Source: Acidobacteriota bacterium (GTDB lineage Bacteria > Acidobacteriota > Terriglobia > Bryobacterales > UBA6623). Taken from it: a DNA stretch of 64,000 nt. The notes beneath the pieces are model-generated. The model worked only from the letters and a program-made list of their open reading frames with translations, was not told where the DNA came from and did no database searches. The position numbers and the translations under genes were made by a program. This document shows, piece by piece, positions 13,664 to 21,298 of the stretch; within the stretch, counting starts at the first letter, position 1; every line of letters begins with the position of its first letter. The stretch covers positions 310,001 through 374,000 of the forward strand of contig WGMB01000010.1 in NCBI GenBank assembly GCA_016125275.1, read 5' to 3'.

Positions 13664-14467
13664 CTATTGCAGCGAACCCATCCAAATCGGATCGGAGGTG
13701 GGCTGCTGCGCTCCCGCCGCATCCTCTTCTGTGATGGCGAGGGCCTGCGATTCAGCCGAGGCGATGGTCGGATTGGCGAAGATCAGGGCGCGATCGTCCT
13801 CATCCGGCCGAAAGACCTCGATGCTCACCGGCGCGCCCTGCTTTGGGATGGCCCAGAGCTGGAAGGCGCGACCGCGCGCCGGGGCGCGGAGGCCTTCGGC
13901 CGTCAGCGCAAGCCCGGACTGATCGTTCCAGAAGGCGCGAATCCGAGCGCGGTCGGGGGCCTCGAGCTGAATCGTACGGGTCTCCTGCGCCGAGAGGATG
14001 TCAAACAACTTGCGATAGCGGTCGTTACTCTGCTCCAGGCTGGCCTGCCGCTCCTCGATCACGGCCAAGGCTTGGCGCAGCTCGTCGCTCTGCCGCTGGT
14101 TGAAGAAGACGAACGCGACCATCGCCGCCGCCACGGCCCAGCCCAGGGCGGCCCAGCGCGGAACCCGCGCCGCCGGTTGCGGGATGGGAAGCTTCGCCTG
14201 GGGGGCCGGCTCTTCGATCTGCTCGAACAGCCGCTGCTTCAGCGCCGGCTCCGGGACGACGGGCTCGGTCGCCAGCGCCACCGCGCCGAGCGACTCGCGC
14301 GCTTCCGCCATCGCCTCGGCCGCTGCCGGATCTCCCTCGGCCAACTTCTGCTCAAGCTCCGCGCGGCCACCGGGGTCCAGCAAGCCGAGCTCGTAGTCGA
14401 TACACAGCGAGACCAGACGGCTCTCGCTGTCTGCTCCAAGTCCCTGCCGTTCCTCGCTCGCCGCCAT
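13664..14467 (-). CDS. Anti-sigma factor (RskA-like)
   Basis: A 267-residue single-pass membrane protein. Residues 1-100 form a cytoplasmic domain including LCIDYELGLLDPGGRAELEQ, similar to ZAS-like anti-sigma domains without the zinc ligands. One transmembrane helix follows (WAALGWAVAAAMVAFVFFN, about residues 105-123), then a coiled-coil-like stretch, then an RskA-type C-terminal domain with AFQLWAIPKQGAPVSIEVF. It is divergent from the ECF sigma gene and likely holds that sigma factor at the membrane until a signal arrives. The 120 bp between its stop and DUF4331 contain the hairpins listed separately. Confidence 0.85.
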   Translation of the reverse strand: MAASEERQGLGADSESRLVSLCIDYELGLLDPGGRAELEQKLAEGDPAAAEAMAEARESLGAVALATEPVVPEPALKQRLFEQIEEPAPQAKLPIPQPAARVPRWAALGWAVAAAMVAFVFFNQRQSDELRQALAVIEERQASLEQSNDRYRKLFDILSAQETRTIQLEAPDRARIRAFWNDQSGLALTAEGLRAPARGRAFQLWAIPKQGAPVSIEVFRPDEDDRALIFANPTIASAESQALAITEEDAAGAQQPTSDPIWMGSLQ

Positions 14468-14546
14468 CGCCGCCGTCCTGAGTGTAGTTTAGTCGGATCG
14501 TCGTATCAGGGTACGAGAATTGCCCGGAAATGGATTTCGCAAAAAG

Positions 14547-14574
14547 CTGACATCCAATAGCGCCATACTACAAT
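14547..14574 (+). promoter_or_regulatory. Sigma-70-like promoter for ECF sigma gene
   Basis: CTGACA at 14547-14552 and TACAAT at 14569-14574 are 16 bp apart, each matching five of six consensus bases. Transcription would begin near 14581, just upstream of the GTG at 14592. This argues against translation from the TTG at 14520, which would lie upstream of the transcript. Confidence 0.4.
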
Positions 14575-14591
14575 GCAAAGTCGCTGAGTCC

Positions 14592-15194
14592 GTGGCCATT
14601 TCGAGACCCAATCCAGGATCGGAGGAGACGTCGACGCGCTGGGCGTTGCTGGCGGCTCGGATTCGCACGGGAGACAAGGACGCCCTGAGCGAGCTTTATG
14701 ACGCCAGCTCGGGCCAGGTTTTCGGGCTGGTTTCCCGCATTGTGGGCGACCGCGCCGTGGCCGAGGAGATCGCCCTCGACGTCTACCTGCAAGTTTGGCG
14801 AGGGTCTTCGGTCCACGACCCCGAACGCGGCTCGGCGACGGCTTGGCTGTTGCTGCTGGCGCGCAGCCGGGCGATCGACTATCTGCGCTCGAAGGCCGGC
14901 CACGCGAGGGGCCGCGAGCAGGCTCTGCCCGAGGAGTATCGACAGGTCGCCGACCGGTCGCCCGACCCGGAGGTCGCCGCGCAGGCCGGCAGCCGCCGCT
15001 CGATCATCGAGGGCGCGCTGGGCCGGCTGGACGCCGACAAGCGCCGGGCCATCGAGCTGGCCTTCTTCGGCGGCTTGAGCCACAGCGAGATCTCCGAGCG
15101 TCTCGGCCTGCCGATCGGCACCGTGAAGACGCGCATCCGGACCGGCATGCAGCAGTTGCGCACGGTCTTGGAGCCCCTCGGCGGCGCGCTCTGA
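14592..15194 (+). CDS. ECF-type RNA polymerase sigma factor
   Basis: A 200-residue sigma-70 family protein. Region 2 is LYDASSGQVFGLVSRIVGDR through EEIALDVYLQVWR. Region 4 is LGRLDADKRRAIELAFFGGL with the helix-turn-helix SHSEISERLGLPIGTVKTRI. This is the SigK-like ECF class that pairs with RskA-type anti-sigma factors, and such a gene lies divergently next to it. I chose GTG 14592 because it follows a plausible promoter and the family does not need the upstream extension; the frame is open back to TTG 14520. Its regulon is unknown, but the divergent DUF4331/TPR/TonB module is the obvious candidate. Confidence 0.88.
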   Translation: MAISRPNPGSEETSTRWALLAARIRTGDKDALSELYDASSGQVFGLVSRIVGDRAVAEEIALDVYLQVWRGSSVHDPERGSATAWLLLLARSRAIDYLRSKAGHARGREQALPEEYRQVADRSPDPEVAAQAGSRRSIIEGALGRLDADKRRAIELAFFGGLSHSEISERLGLPIGTVKTRIRTGMQQLRTVLEPLGGAL

Positions 15195-15243
15195 GCTCCG
15201 CTTGGTTGCGGGCTTGCTCCGCACCCGGCTACTCTAAGGATTC

Positions 15244-15315
15244 ATGGCGTTCGCGCTCCATCACGCCCACCACGGCTTCCATCATGGACGCCTGGGGCGA
15301 GGTGCGGACGTCTGA
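15244..15315 (+). CDS. hisL: His operon leader peptide
   Basis: A 23-codon reading frame, too short for most gene finders: ATG at 15244, TGA at 15313-15315, preceded by AAGGA at 15236-15240. The peptide begins MAFALHHAHHGFHHG, with six histidines within nine positions. It lies 88 bp upstream of hisI and 31 bp before a U-tailed hairpin. In classical his attenuation, ribosomes stall at these codons when charged His-tRNA is low, and the terminator is then not formed. The His density, the position and the following terminator together make this assignment strong. Confidence 0.88.
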   Translation: MAFALHHAHHGFHHGRLGRGADV

Positions 15316-15346
15316 CGATCGACGTAACGATCGAAGAACCGAACCG

Positions 15347-15382
15347 AAGCCCGCCGGCGCAGCCGAGCGGGTTTTTTCTTTT
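15347..15382 (+). terminator. His attenuator terminator hairpin
   Basis: AAGCCCGC (15347-15354) pairs with GCGGGTTT (15367-15374), with an inner GGC/GCC helix closing a GCA loop. The run TTTTTTCTTTT (15372-15382) follows directly. This is an intrinsic terminator placed between the His-rich leader and hisI, as expected for an attenuator. I could not define a convincing antiterminator pairing by eye. Confidence 0.85.
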
Positions 15383-15402
15383 GGGACCTGAGGGAGAACG
15401 GA

Positions 15403-15783
15403 ATGCTCAACGAGCTGGATTTCGACAAGACGGGGGGCATGATCCCCGCCGTCGTGCAGGACAGCGGCGACGGCCGCGTCTTGATGCTGGGCTTCATGAA
15501 CCGCGAAGCCTTCGAAAAGACGGTGGAGACCGGCAAGGTCACCTTCTGGAGCCGTTCGCGGAACGAGCTTTGGACCAAGGGCGGCTCTTCGGGGCACTAC
15601 CTCGCAGTCCAACGCATCGAGATCGACTGTGACGGCGATACGCTGCTGATCCAGGCCGAATCCTTGGGTCCGGGGGTCTGCCATAATGGTTATCGCTCCT
15701 GCTTCTATCGCCGTCTGGAGGACGGTCGCTGGGAAGTCTCCGAGGAGCGCACCTACGATCCCAAAGCGGTGTATCAGAAGTAG
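15403..15783 (+). CDS. hisI: Phosphoribosyl-AMP cyclohydrolase
   Basis: A 126-residue enzyme that opens the adenine ring of PR-AMP in histidine synthesis. VLMLGFMNREAF, TFWSRSRNELWTKG, the metal-ligand segment IDCDGDTLLIQ and GPGVCHNGYRSCFYR are all present. It is the cyclohydrolase domain only: there is no fused HisE (PR-ATP pyrophosphatase) domain, and no hisE gene is seen in this operon. A good Shine-Dalgarno site (GAGGGAGAAC) precedes the ATG. It is the first structural gene after the attenuator. Confidence 0.95.
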   Translation: MLNELDFDKTGGMIPAVVQDSGDGRVLMLGFMNREAFEKTVETGKVTFWSRSRNELWTKGGSSGHYLAVQRIEIDCDGDTLLIQAESLGPGVCHNGYRSCFYRRLEDGRWEVSEERTYDPKAVYQK

Positions 15784-15801
15784 GGGTTTGGCGTTTCTCC
15801 C

Positions 15802-17052
15802 ATGCTGAGAATCCTGCGCAGCTCGGATCGCGCCGCGATCGACGCCCTCTTCGCCCGCCGTTCGGCGCGGCTGGAGGAGGCCGAGGCGGTGGTGCGTCCG
15901 ATTCTGGCCGCCGTCCGTGAACGCGGCGACGCGGCTCTGGTGGAATACGCCCGCAAATTCGACCGCCTGGAGGGCGATTCGGTGCGGATTCCGGCCGAGG
16001 AGCTCAGCCGGCAGGCCGACGCGGTCACGCCGGCTCTGCGCTCGGCGGTGGAGACGGCGGCGGGCCAGATCCGCGCCTTTGCGGAGCGGCAAGCCCCGCG
16101 CGGCTGGATGGACGAGATCGGCCCAGGCATCCGGCTGGGACAGATCGTGCGTCCGCTCGACGCCGTCGGGGCCTACATCCCCGGCGGCCGCTATCCGCTG
16201 CCTTCGACGCTGATGATGACCGTGATTCCGGCGCAGGTCGCCGGCGTCGGGACCATCTCGGCGTGCTGCCCGGGTCCCACGCCCGAGACGCTGGCGACGG
16301 CCGGTCTGCTGGGCGTGAAGAACTTCTTCCGGATGGGCGGAGCGCAGGCCATCGCCGCTTTCTGCTACGGCACCGAGACGGTGCCGCGGGCGCAGCGCAT
16401 CGTCGGGCCCGGCAATATTTATGTGGCGGCGGCGAAGAAGCTGCTGGCCGGCGATGTGGGCATCGACTTCGTGGCTGGGCCCACGGAGATCCTGCTCATC
16501 TTCCCCGACGGCGATCCCCGCAAGCTCGCGGCGGACATGCTGGCGCAGGCCGAGCATGACGTGGACGCCGCAGCCATCCTGCTGACGATGTCCGCCGAGA
16601 CGGCCGAGCGCACGGCCGCAGAGGTCGAGCGGCAGCTCGAGACGCTGCCGACGGCCGCGGTGGCGCGCCGGGCGATCGACGATAACAGCGCCATCGTGAT
16701 CTGCGACTCGGTGGCGGAGGCCTGCGCGATCTCCAACGATTTCGCACCCGAGCATCTCTCCGTGGCCGACGACTCGTTTCTCGACCAGATCGTGCATGCC
16801 GGCAGCGTCTTCGTTGGGCCTTGGAGCCCCGAGGCGGCCGGCGACTATGCTTCGGGCCCGAACCACGTGCTGCCGACCAGCGGCGCCGCTCGGCTCCGCG
16901 GCGGCCTGTCGATCCTCGACTACGTCAAGATCATCACCGTGCAGCAGCTCGAGCCGGCCGGCTTGGAGCGCATCGCCTCGGCTGTGACCACGCTGGCGCG
17001 GGCGGAAGGCTTGGAAGCGCACGCACGCTCGGTGGAGGCTCGCTTTGACTGA
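15802..17052 (+). CDS. hisD: Histidinol dehydrogenase
   Basis: A 416-residue enzyme that oxidises histidinol to histidine in two NAD-dependent steps. It shows VGAYIPGGRYPLPSTLMM, GVKNFFRMGGAQAIAAFCYG, VDFVAGPTEI-like text (IDFVAGPTEILLIF), the zinc/active-site segment AQAEHDVDAAAILLT and EHLSVADDSF. The length is usual for the family. It follows hisI by 18 bp and its stop overlaps the hisC start. Confidence 0.96.
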   Translation: MLRILRSSDRAAIDALFARRSARLEEAEAVVRPILAAVRERGDAALVEYARKFDRLEGDSVRIPAEELSRQADAVTPALRSAVETAAGQIRAFAERQAPRGWMDEIGPGIRLGQIVRPLDAVGAYIPGGRYPLPSTLMMTVIPAQVAGVGTISACCPGPTPETLATAGLLGVKNFFRMGGAQAIAAFCYGTETVPRAQRIVGPGNIYVAAAKKLLAGDVGIDFVAGPTEILLIFPDGDPRKLAADMLAQAEHDVDAAAILLTMSAETAERTAAEVERQLETLPTAAVARRAIDDNSAIVICDSVAEACAISNDFAPEHLSVADDSFLDQIVHAGSVFVGPWSPEAAGDYASGPNHVLPTSGAARLRGGLSILDYVKIITVQQLEPAGLERIASAVTTLARAEGLEAHARSVEARFD

Positions 17053-18115
17053 AACGCCGATCGGTCTGCGTCCCAAGCCGCGCGCCGCCATCGAGCGGAT
17101 GGCGCCCTACCACCCGCCGACGAGTGGGCGGGTCGGCGCGATGCGGCTCGATTTCAACGAGAACACCGTGGGCTGCTCGCCGAAGGCGCTCGAGCGCTTG
17201 AAGCAGGCTCTTACGGGCGAGTTGCTCGCGACCTATCCGGAATATGAGGCCGTTCGCGAAAAGGCCGCGGCCTTCTTCGGCGTCGGTGCGGACCAGATGA
17301 CCTTCTGTGACGGCACCGACGAAGGCATACACATCCTGATCCAGACCTATGTGGAAGCCGGCGATGAGGTCGTGATGACGTGGCCGGCCTATCCCATGCT
17401 GCGCTTCTACGCCCAGGTGGCCGGCGCGGAGCCCGTCCTGGTCCCCTACTGCGAGCCGGACTTGGCGTTTCCGCTCGACGAGCTGCTGGCCGCGATCGGC
17501 CCCAAAACGCGCGCGGTGCTGGTCGCCAACCCCAACAACCCCACCGGCGGCGCGATCGGGCTGGCGGACATCGAACGCATCCTCGAAAAAGCAGCCGGCG
17601 CGGCCGTGCTGATCGACGAGGCCTACTTCGAGTTCTACGGCGTCACCGCGCTGGACCTCCTGCCACGCTACCCGAACCTGTTCGTGAGCCGCACGTTCTC
17701 CAAGACCTACGGCTTGGCCGGCTTGCGCGTCGGCTGCCTGTTCTCGCAGGCCGAGAACATGGCTTTGGTGCGCAAGGGCCAGTCGCCCTATAGCGTAAAC
17801 GTGCTGGCCGCCGCCTGTGTGACCGCGGCCATCGAAGACCAGGAGTACGTCCGCGGGTACGTTCGCGAAGTGCTGGAAGCCCGCGAAGAGCTGCTGGCGG
17901 CGCTGCGCCGGCTCGACATCCCGTATTGGCCCACCGAGGCGAACTTCGTCCTGGTGCACCTGGGCGACAAGGCTTCGCGGGTGGTGGAAGGGTTGGCGGC
18001 GCGGGGTATTCGCGTGCGCGACCGCGGTAAGGAACGAGTCGGCGCCGTGCGGTTCACTGTCGGGACGCGCGAGCAGACGGCGCAGTTGATCGCCGCCGTC
18101 GAGGAGCTGTTGTAG
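17045..18115 (+). CDS. hisC: Histidinol-phosphate aminotransferase
   Basis: A 356-residue PLP enzyme that transaminates imidazole-acetol phosphate. FNENTVGCSPKALERLKQAL, VLVANPNNPTGGAIG and the PLP-lysine segment SRTFSKTYGLAGLRVG (about residues 217-232) are visible. Translation starts at TTG 17045, overlapping the end of hisD; the next gene, hisB, begins at the base after its stop. Length and motifs are standard. Confidence 0.95.
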   Translation: MTETPIGLRPKPRAAIERMAPYHPPTSGRVGAMRLDFNENTVGCSPKALERLKQALTGELLATYPEYEAVREKAAAFFGVGADQMTFCDGTDEGIHILIQTYVEAGDEVVMTWPAYPMLRFYAQVAGAEPVLVPYCEPDLAFPLDELLAAIGPKTRAVLVANPNNPTGGAIGLADIERILEKAAGAAVLIDEAYFEFYGVTALDLLPRYPNLFVSRTFSKTYGLAGLRVGCLFSQAENMALVRKGQSPYSVNVLAAACVTAAIEDQEYVRGYVREVLEAREELLAALRRLDIPYWPTEANFVLVHLGDKASRVVEGLAARGIRVRDRGKERVGAVRFTVGTREQTAQLIAAVEELL

Positions 18116-18718
18116 ATGGCCAGGACCGCCACGATCGAGCGCATCACCAAGGAGACGCAGATTCGCGCGCGCCTTGAGATCGACGGCAAGGGCGAGTACC
18201 AGGTCTCGACCGGAATCCGCTTCTTCGACCACATGCTGGAGCTGTTCACCAAGCATGGGGGCTTCGACCTGGATCTGCAGGCAACCGGCGACCTGGACGT
18301 GGACCAGCACCACACCGTCGAGGATGTGGGCATCGTGCTCGGGCAATGCTTCGCCAAGGCCTTGGGCGACCGCAAGGGCATCAACCGGGCGGGCTACTTC
18401 CTGATGCCGATGGATGAGACCCTGGCCGCCGTGGCGATCGACCTGAGCGGACGGCCCGCCCTGATCTACAGCGCCCCGACGCGCTTTCGCCTGGTGGGCG
18501 ACCTGCAGACCGAGCTGCTGCACGATTTCTTCGACGGGTTCGCGACGCATTGCGGCTGCAACCTGCACGCCAAGGTGCTCTACGGCCGCTCGAATCACCA
18601 CAAGATCGAGGGGATCTTCAAGTGCTTCGCGCGGGCCCTGCGGTTTGCGTGTTCGACCGATGAGCGCCTGAAGGATTCGTTGCCCTCGACCAAGGGATTG
18701 CTCGAGAAAACGACGTGA
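18116..18718 (+). CDS. hisB: Imidazoleglycerol-phosphate dehydratase
   Basis: A 200-residue manganese enzyme that dehydrates imidazole glycerol phosphate. Conserved blocks are [36 protein letters not shown] and the mirrored repeat with [18 protein letters not shown]. It is the single-domain form; the histidinol-phosphatase domain found in enterobacterial HisB is absent, and no separate phosphatase is in this operon. It starts immediately after the hisC stop, and its stop overlaps the hisH start. Confidence 0.96.
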
Positions 18719-19320
18719 TTGCAATCTTCGACTACGGGGCCGGCAACTTGCGCTCGGTCGAGAACACGCTCGACGCCATCGGCGCGAGTTATCAGATCGT
18801 GCGTGACGCCGAGAGCCTGGAGCAGGCCGAGAAGATCATCCTTCCCGGCGTAGGGCACTTCGGGCAACTGTTGCGCTCGCTCGACCGATTGGGCGTTCGC
18901 GAAACGCTCAAGGAGCGGATGGCGGCCGGCGTGCCGTTCCTGGGCATCTGCCTGGGGTTGCAGGCGCTGTTCGAGGGCAGCGACGAGGCGCCGGAGCTGG
19001 CCGGTTTGGGAGTCTTTCCCGGGCGCGTGCGCCGCTTCCCTGCCGAGTTGCGCGCGCCGCAGATGGGTTGGAATTCCTTGCAGCCGCAGGGCGCTTCAAA
19101 GCTGATGGCCGGCGTCGGCGAAGCTCCCTACGTCTACTTCGCCAACAGCTACTATGTCCCGGCCGAGACCGGCGGCGGGCGCTCGGCGGCGCTTTGCGAT
19201 TACGGCGGCGTCTCCTTTACGGCGGCCCTGGAAGCCTCGAACGTCTTCGGCGTCCAGTTCCACCCGGAAAAATCGAGCGCCGTGGGCCAGCAGATCGTCA
19301 GGAACTTTCTCGCATGCTGA
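18715..19320 (+). CDS. hisH: Imidazole glycerol phosphate synthase, glutaminase subunit
   Basis: A 201-residue class I glutamine amidotransferase that feeds ammonia to HisF. It begins [20 protein letters not shown]. The nucleophile cysteine is in [15 protein letters not shown] (about residue 80), and the His-Glu pair is in [17 protein letters not shown] near the C-terminus. It starts with GTG overlapping the hisB stop, and its own end overlaps the hisF start by 7 bp, which fits equal production of the two subunits. Confidence 0.96.
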
Positions 19321-20093
19321 CCAAACGCATCATCCCCTGCCTCGACGTGAAGGCCGGACGAGTGGTCAAGGGCGTCAACTTCGTGGGTCTGCGGGACGCC
19401 GGCGACCCGGTGGAACTGAGCGACCGCTACAACCAAGACGGCGCCGATGAGCTGGTCTTTCTCGACATCACGGCCTCGAGCGACCGCCGCGACATCATGA
19501 TCGACGTAGTCGAGCGCACCGCACGAAAGGTCTTCATCCCGTTGACAGTCGGCGGCGGCATTCGCAGCGTGGCCGACGCCCGCCGGATTCTGGTGGTGGG
19601 GGCCGACAAGGTTTCGGTTAACACGGCCGCCGTGCACCGCCCGGAGCTCATCACCGAGCTGTCGGAAGAGTTCGGCGCGCAGGCGACCGTGCTGGCGATC
19701 GACGCCCGGCGGTCGGGAGCGGGCCGTTGGAACGTCTTTATCTACGGCGGCCGCGAGGACACCGGCATGGACGCGGTGGAATGGGCTCGGCGCGCCGAGG
19801 AGCTTGGCTGCGGAGAGATTCTGCTGACCTCCATGGACGCCGACGGCACCCAAGCCGGCTTCGATTGCGAGCTGACCCGGGCGATCTCGCGGGCGACCAA
19901 GATTCCCGTGATCGCCAGTGGCGGCGGCGGCCGGCCGGAAGACTTTCTGCGCGTGCTCACCGAGGGTGAAGCCGACGCTGCGCTGGCGGCCTCGGTGTTC
20001 CACTATGGGACTTACACGGTCGACGACTTGAAGGAGATCCTCGACAAGGAAGGCGTGCCGGTCCGGCCGCAAGCCCGCGTAGCCGTCGACTAG
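19314..20093 (+). CDS. hisF: Imidazole glycerol phosphate synthase, cyclase subunit
   Basis: A 259-residue TIM barrel that closes the imidazole ring and releases AICAR. The start [20 protein letters not shown] carries the catalytic aspartate, and the second is in [26 protein letters not shown] and [10 protein letters not shown] are the phosphate-binding loops. The ATG lies within the end of hisH. It is followed 21 bp later by a Nudix gene, not directly by another his gene. Confidence 0.96.
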
Positions 20094-20114
20094 GTCGGGC
20101 CCTGTATCGCTACC

Positions 20115-20594
20115 ATGCCGCACCTGTTCTACGACCTCGACTTCACGGTCTCCGTCTTCGTCGTCCATGCCGGCCGGGTCCTGCTGGTGCATCACCGCAA
20201 ACTGGGCCGCTGGCTGCCGGTGGGCGGCCACATCGAGATCGGCGAGGACCCCGAACAAGCGGCTTTGCGGGAGACGCTCGAGGAGAGCGGCCTGGAGATC
20301 GAGCTGCTGGGTCCGCGGCCTCCACGAGACTTTCCGGGGACGAAGATTCTCACCGCGCCCAGCTATTTGGACGTCCACGACATCCACGGGGATCATCGCC
20401 ACATCGGCATGATCTACTTCGCCCGGGCCGGCAGCGCCGAGCTGCGTCTGGCGGAGCAGGAGCACCACGCCATCCGCTGGTTTACGCCCGAGGAGTTGGC
20501 TGATCCGGAACGCGGCGTGGACGAGGCGATTCGCTTCTATGCCGGTGAAGCCTTGGCGCGCGTGGGCGGCGAGGCGGTCAAGGAGAACGGATGA
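20115..20594 (+). CDS. Nudix hydrolase embedded in the his operon
   Basis: A 159-residue Nudix protein. The Nudix box is GGHIEIGEDPEQAALRETLE with ESGL directly after (about residues 37-60). It satisfies the GX5EX7REUXEEXGU pattern except that a threonine takes the first hydrophobic position. Such enzymes cleave nucleoside diphosphates linked to another moiety. The gene lies 21 bp after hisF, and its stop overlaps the hisA start (ATGA), so it is translated as part of the operon. The operon has no hisE, so this enzyme may act on PR-ATP or a related nucleotide; that is inference. A general housecleaning role is the alternative. Confidence 0.88.
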   Translation: MPHLFYDLDFTVSVFVVHAGRVLLVHHRKLGRWLPVGGHIEIGEDPEQAALRETLEESGLEIELLGPRPPRDFPGTKILTAPSYLDVHDIHGDHRHIGMIYFARAGSAELRLAEQEHHAIRWFTPEELADPERGVDEAIRFYAGEALARVGGEAVKENG

Positions 20595-21298
20595 TCATTC
20601 CGTGCATCGATCTGCAGGACGGCAAGGTCGTCCAACTCGTGCAGGGACGCGAGAAGGCTCTCGAAGGCGACTCTCCCGAGCGGATGCTCGAAAAGTTCGC
20701 GGCGTTTGGCGTGATTCAGGTGATCGACCTGGACGCTGCCATGGGCAAGGGCTCCAACGACGCGATCGTGCGCGATCTGGCGGGCCGGGCGGTGACGCGC
20801 GTCGGCGGCGGGGTGCGCAACGTGGAGCGCGCCCGCGCGCTGATCGATGCCGGCGCTTCGCGGGTGATCGTCGGGACGGCCGCCTTTTCCGGCAACGGCG
20901 TCAATGAGCCATTGCTGGCGGAGATGGACGCAGCCATCGGACGAGAGAAGATTCTATTGGCGCTCGATTCCAAGGACGGCCGGATCACCATCAAGGGGTG
21001 GCAGGAAGCCGTGGATCGCACCGCCGAAGATGTGATCCAGAGTCTGGAACCGTATTGCGGCGGCTTCCTGTGCACCTATGTGGACAAGGAAGGCATGCTG
21101 CAAGGCACGGATCTGGATTGGTACAAGCGCTTACGCGCGGCGACCCGGCACGAGATTACGGCGGCCGGCGGGATCACCACCATCGAGGAGATCCAGGCCC
21201 TGGCGGATTTACAGATTCATTCCGCGTTGGGAATGGCGATCTATACCGGCAGATTGGACCTGGAAGAACTGGCCAAGATGAACGGGCGGCTCGACTGA
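20591..21298 (+). CDS. hisA: Phosphoribosyl-ProFAR isomerase
   Basis: A 235-residue TIM barrel that isomerises ProFAR to PRFAR. It begins MIIPCIDLQDGKVVQLVQGR with the catalytic aspartate. VGGGVRNVERARALIDAGAS and ITAAGGITTIEEIQALAD form the two phosphate sites, and LLALDSKDGRI carries the second aspartate. The ATG overlaps the stop of the Nudix gene. It is the last gene of the operon and runs into a strong terminator. Confidence 0.94.
   Translation: MIIPCIDLQDGKVVQLVQGREKALEGDSPERMLEKFAAFGVIQVIDLDAAMGKGSNDAIVRDLAGRAVTRVGGGVRNVERARALIDAGASRVIVGTAAFSGNGVNEPLLAEMDAAIGREKILLALDSKDGRITIKGWQEAVDRTAEDVIQSLEPYCGGFLCTYVDKEGMLQGTDLDWYKRLRAATRHEITAAGGITTIEEIQALADLQIHSALGMAIYTGRLDLEELAKMNGRLD

Follow-up and report, generated by a model that had tools for sequence, protein, structure and literature searches.

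Does the histidine operon of an acidobacterium carry a ribosome-controlled switch in front of its first gene? In a stretch of 64,000 nucleotides from the genome of an Acidobacteriota bacterium, the whole of which we call the window, the his operon begins with hisI and is preceded by a short reading frame rich in His codons and by a hairpin with a T-rich tail. A preliminary description read this arrangement as a his attenuator of the classical design. Our analysis makes it very probable that transcription of the his operon is attenuated here by a ribosome-mediated mechanism and adds a promoter position that bears on how the leader is translated. The features on which the argument draws are as follows, with the basis for each in parentheses.

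15206-15211, plus strand: possible -35 element TTGCGG, weak, 18 bp before the -10 box (sequence only)
15230-15235, plus strand: -10 box TACTCT, with its end 8 nt upstream of the leader ATG (TATACT/TANNNT likewise placed in relatives)
15244-15315, plus strand: leader ORF MAFALHHAHHGFHHGRLGRGADV, with six His codons (sequence; His-rich leaders likewise placed in relatives)
15246-15257, plus strand: strand 1, predicted to pair with 15301-15312 in the ribosome-free leader, forming the protector hairpin (folding)
15259-15285, plus strand: putative regulatory His codons 6-7, 9-10, and 13-14 (leader sequence)
15289-15298, plus strand: strand 2, predicted 5′ strand of the antiterminator within the leader ORF (CGCC, GGGGC; folding, and covariation of the equivalent pairing)
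15316-15333, plus strand: small hairpin CGATCG-N6-CGATCG, directly 3′ of the leader stop codon (folding, window only)
15346-15382, plus strand: intrinsic terminator, consisting of a hairpin at 15346-15375 and a T run at 15372-15382 (folding and scoring)
15349-15359, plus strand: strand 3, the 5′ arm of the terminator and predicted 3′ strand of the antiterminator (folding)
15403-15783, plus strand: hisI, phosphoribosyl-AMP cyclohydrolase (PRA-CH), first gene of the operon (PF01502, E 7e-33)
15802-21298, plus strand: remaining his operon, with hisD, hisC, hisB, hisH, hisF, a NUDIX ORF, and hisA (ORFs)

The leader, terminator, and his operon of the window

The leader ORF runs from an ATG at 15244-15246 to a TGA at 15313-15315 and has 23 sense codons, with His at positions 6, 7, 9, 10, 13, and 14, confirming the short leader with six histidines in three His-His pairs that had been noticed first. 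No other short ORF in the 64-kb window, whichever strand is read, has at least five His in ten codons, and 20 dinucleotide-shuffled versions of the entire window contained none. Nor does any other short ORF of the window combine a -10-like hexamer just 5′ with a strong terminator just 3′. The terminator hairpin, GAAGCCCGCCGGC-GCA-GCCGAGCGGGTTTT (15346-15375), scored -20.4 kcal/mol and runs into the tail TTTTTTCTTTT at 15372-15382, and hisI follows at 15403, 87 nt from the leader stop, again as first described. The 145-nt attenuator stretch folded with z = -4.65. The names of the closest relatives by hisI (Bryobacterales, Bryobacteraceae, or Acidobacteria) confirm the acidobacterial lineage that had been presumed from the letters of the window.

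The gene order of the his operon is the same in the closest relative (G002), and Pfam identified hisF and the NUDIX ORF of the window operon. This NUDIX hydrolase ORF (20115-20594) lies between hisF and hisA and has counterparts in G002 (72%) and in G007 (58%, with hisI on the same contig); most relatives are without one. No recognisable hisE (PRA-PH) was found in the genome of the window (G000) or in its his operon (15403-21298). The sole hisE match in that genome is weak (G000:C20:170851-171003, in a 270-aa frame of MazG size; PF01503, 24.7 bits; TIGR03188, 22.7 bits, below the cut-off of 42.7), and the 20 Bryobacterales relatives searched for hisE gave a similarly weak match or none. In other Bryobacterales, a HAD-like hydrolase gene, assigned by its DMDGVLVD motif, lies between hisC and hisB (L174, 4293-4979; L173, 6807-7475) and perhaps encodes a histidinol-phosphate phosphatase; the his operon of the window has no such gene. 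On the 5′ side of the operon, 13664-15194 holds an ECF sigma factor gene and a divergent RskA-type anti-sigma gene. Other regulators were sought as well. The genome has no PF01371 match of the TrpR/HisR repressor family, and a His T-box was rejected as a candidate, as the window has no Rfam T-box match and no Rfam family of any kind at gathering score.

Conservation across Acidobacteriota

First, leaders of this kind are widespread in front of hisI. Among the loci collected through hisI, 53 (near-duplicates counted), nearly all from Bryobacterales or other Terriglobia, have a His-rich ORF that ends 5′ of this gene, the criterion being three or more His within eight codons of a short ORF. For 50 of the 53, scoring also gave a terminator hairpin followed by a T tail. 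MQVCAVALHHHHHHSKPHRAAG and MAIGSVARHHHHHPGASFLRRALF are typical leader peptides among the relatives, and the cultured Acidobacteriaceae bacterium KBS 96 (L061) is one carrier of the leader. The sample was then widened by 40 regions, none longer than 16 kb, which came from further families within the phylum and from different genera of the class; their operon order was assigned from tblastn positions. Here, all 22 hisI-first operons sampled outside the order had a leader immediately before hisI, and a terminator was scored for most of them. Among operons in which hisI comes last there were three leaders, located before whichever gene comes first, which was hisG (L152), hisD (L160), or hisZ (L161), as named by reading the protein sequences. 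Away from those places, the leader and terminator criteria gave two matches in ~590 kb. In most of Bryobacterales, and also in further families of the phylum, the his operon has a predicted His-rich leader and terminator in front of it. The expectation that relatives would keep His codons upstream of hisI was borne out.

Second, the His codons themselves are maintained. Between close relatives, 11 changes in His codons were synonymous and 3 nonsynonymous, compared to 7 and 30, respectively, in other codons; these counts are indicative because the leader pairs, few in number, partly overlap. As the His codons change mostly synonymously and the other codons drift, selection appears to hold the His codons of the leader and little else of the peptide.

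Third, the exceptions look like losses. The whole attenuator is missing from all sampled genomes of one genus in the family of the window (g5; L009, L013, L016, L018, L022, L028, and others); sister genera of g5 retain it before hisI. Genome G003 (L033/L172) keeps the promoter, an HAHH motif, and the terminator but has ACG at the expected ATG and no intact His leader, which may therefore be decaying or may use a nonstandard start, and L060 retains a promoter-like sequence and the terminator but lacks a His leader. We scanned the hisG region in the genome of the window (L166) and found no His leader there. A search of 297 genomes of the phylum with a strict TATANT...CAYCAYCAY pattern was uninformative, missing the leader of the window and giving chance matches elsewhere.

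Leader start and alternative structures

The position of the promoter relative to the leader was absent from the preliminary description, whose attenuator reading otherwise stands. Of 69 leaders, 57 have a TANNNT-type hexamer, mostly TATACT, with its end 8-10 nt upstream of the ATG, and a high-scoring -10 hexamer (score at least 8) was present in 57% of leaders versus 3.4% of shuffled upstream sequence. No Shine-Dalgarno signal was detected at the leaders, where the anti-SD energy was -1.97, compared to -1.96 for shuffled sequence and -4.14 at hisI starts. A -10 box at this distance, together with the lack of a Shine-Dalgarno signal, makes translation of the leader from a leaderless mRNA probable; judged by promoter position alone, the transcript and the leader reading frame appear to begin at the same base. 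A TANNNT ~12 bp before the start codon is a published criterion for leaderless genes, which make up 9.7-19.4% of the genes in the three acidobacterial genomes examined (PMC3160421), and the leaders share with these TA-led genes both the hexamer and the lack of a Shine-Dalgarno sequence, although that survey concerned annotated genes rather than attenuator leader ORFs.

A variant of this one step, in which the leader has an ordinary Shine-Dalgarno start at AAGGA (15236-15240), the promoter lies further upstream, and the remaining attenuator is unchanged, strikes us as unlikely. The AAGGA sits 3 nt before the ATG, and the window has an anti-SD energy of -3.9 kcal/mol, but a usual Shine-Dalgarno interaction needs wider spacing, and relatives have a -10 hexamer at the same place, with a Shine-Dalgarno signal no better than that of shuffled sequence. 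Because TACTCT ends 8 nt before the ATG, AAGGA is more likely to be promoter spacer than ribosome-binding site. We return to the leaderless start and judge it probable, at somewhat lower confidence than the attenuator itself, that across Acidobacteriota the leader of the his attenuator is translated leaderless and that attenuation on leaderless initiation is the general rule of the phylum.

How could translation of the leader be sensed by the terminator? The 3′ part of the leader is complementary to the 5′ arm and loop of the terminator. Leaders paired more strongly with their own terminator arm than with swapped arms (z = -5.9 for 68 loci; z = -5.6 for 32 diverse loci), more weakly so in the Bryobacterales-centred set alone (z -3.3), and none of 20,000 permutations was as strong, although permutation does not fully remove effects of shared ancestry. 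When the ribosome was represented by a mask, pairing of the arm to the leader was 0.80 with the ribosome stalled at His, 0.24 with the ribosome at the stop codon, and 0.59 in a control in which the 3′ part of the leader was shuffled and the ribosome was stalled at a His codon (p = 4e-12). For the related loci as a set, folding predicts an antiterminator whose formation is incompatible with the terminator and varies with where the ribosome sits.

For the window alone, the corresponding values were 0.60 stalled, 0.06 at stop, and 0.60 with the shuffled leader. Because the stalled and shuffled values are equal, the antiterminator of the window is not above chance, and its duplex energy likewise equals the shuffled mean, with no excess. 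In the minimum-energy fold of the window, the antiterminator is predicted with the A site at codons 6, 7, 9, or 10, through pairing of 15289-15292 with 15356-15359 and of 15294-15298 with 15349-15354, and is lost with the ribosome at the stop codon; this structure is possible, at a strength no better than chance for so GC-rich a sequence. An alternative antiterminator, which the preliminary description had called for, exists and covaries across the phylum, but its strength in the window could arise by chance. Neither unconserved His codons nor an absence of antiterminator pairing was seen, and the classical his attenuation design proposed at first is supported. When the full terminator is present, it wins at equilibrium even with a stalled ribosome (P 0.97 in the window), and the switch must therefore be kinetic, occurring during transcription. 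Known attenuators likewise switch during transcription.

We propose the following mechanism. Transcription probably starts 0-3 nt before the leader ATG, and a ribosome would load on the leaderless mRNA and trail the polymerase. When charged tRNA-His is scarce, this ribosome would wait at His codons 6-10, where it would release strand 2 (15289-15298) from the protector hairpin; free strand 2 would then pair with the 5′ arm of the terminator (15349-15359), and polymerase would read into hisI. When histidine is plentiful, a ribosome at the stop codon would cover strand 2, the terminator (15346-15382) would form, and transcription would stop. In the absence of translation, the leader would fold on itself, and the terminator would form in this case too.

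Might the leader act mainly on translation instead, with its ribosome controlling access to the hisI start or reinitiation there? The leader stop is only 87 nt from hisI, and T runs are weak or interrupted in L011, L034, L067, and L153, but most loci have a strong hairpin followed immediately by a T run, and the pairing that we detected engages the terminator arm rather than the hisI start region. We regard this explanation as improbable in general; translational control is conceivable at the few loci whose T runs are poor. Least credible of all is that the hairpin terminates the upstream ECF sigma-factor gene, which lies on the same strand and ends at 15194, and that the His-rich ORF is accidental, because the same leader and terminator precede his operons whose neighbourhoods lack sigma and anti-sigma genes, the His codons are kept through synonymous change, and the interval from the sigma gene to the leader contains a -10 box.

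Relation to known attenuators

As a transcription attenuator, the acidobacterial element resembles hisL of E. coli and Salmonella (RF00514, His_leader) in having a His-rich leader peptide with protector, antiterminator, and terminator hairpins, and in preceding the first gene of the his operon. That gene is hisG in the enterobacterial operons and hisI here, however, and the acidobacterial leader ORF is probably leaderless and contains strand 2 in its 3′ end. RF00514 gave no gathering-score match in the window or in 13 related loci, and Rfam searches at E<=10 gave only chance matches within 15150-15450, none of them to RF00514.

The statement that this design is known mainly from Proteobacteria was fair but incomplete. 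His attenuators have been described for gammaproteobacteria and some Firmicutes (PMC9413887, PMC2965389), the latter including the Bacillus cereus group, Peptostreptococcaceae, and Erysipelotrichales (PMC9413887) and the hisZ/hisS leaders of bacilli (PMC2965389). Compared without sequence alignment, the Firmicutes elements likewise consist of a leader with His codons followed by alternative terminator and antiterminator hairpins, but they belong to another phylum and precede operons of another order. An attenuator leader ORF that starts at the first base of its transcript has a counterpart in Sinorhizobium meliloti, where rnTrpL starts with the trpL ATG and the 5′ end is experimentally known (PMC7298713); that case concerns tryptophan in alphaproteobacteria, whereas ours concerns histidine and a whole phylum and is inferred from promoter position only. 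Cysteine-rich small ORFs of mycobacteria have also been proposed as attenuators (PMC4633059). We found no published description of a his attenuator in Acidobacteria, in a search with the subscription literature mostly outside it, and comparative attenuation studies by other groups may include one.

A leader without a 5′ UTR has no place for early ribosome loading. If attenuation on leaderless initiation is indeed the rule in Acidobacteriota, the first ribosome must load on the 5′ end of the mRNA as soon as that end is free of polymerase, and these leaders would form a natural set tying leaderless initiation to transcription-translation coupling. With this attenuator, which is invisible to Rfam and has a clear predicted function in many families of an abundant, poorly studied soil phylum, the known range of ribosome-coupled his control would gain a phylum.
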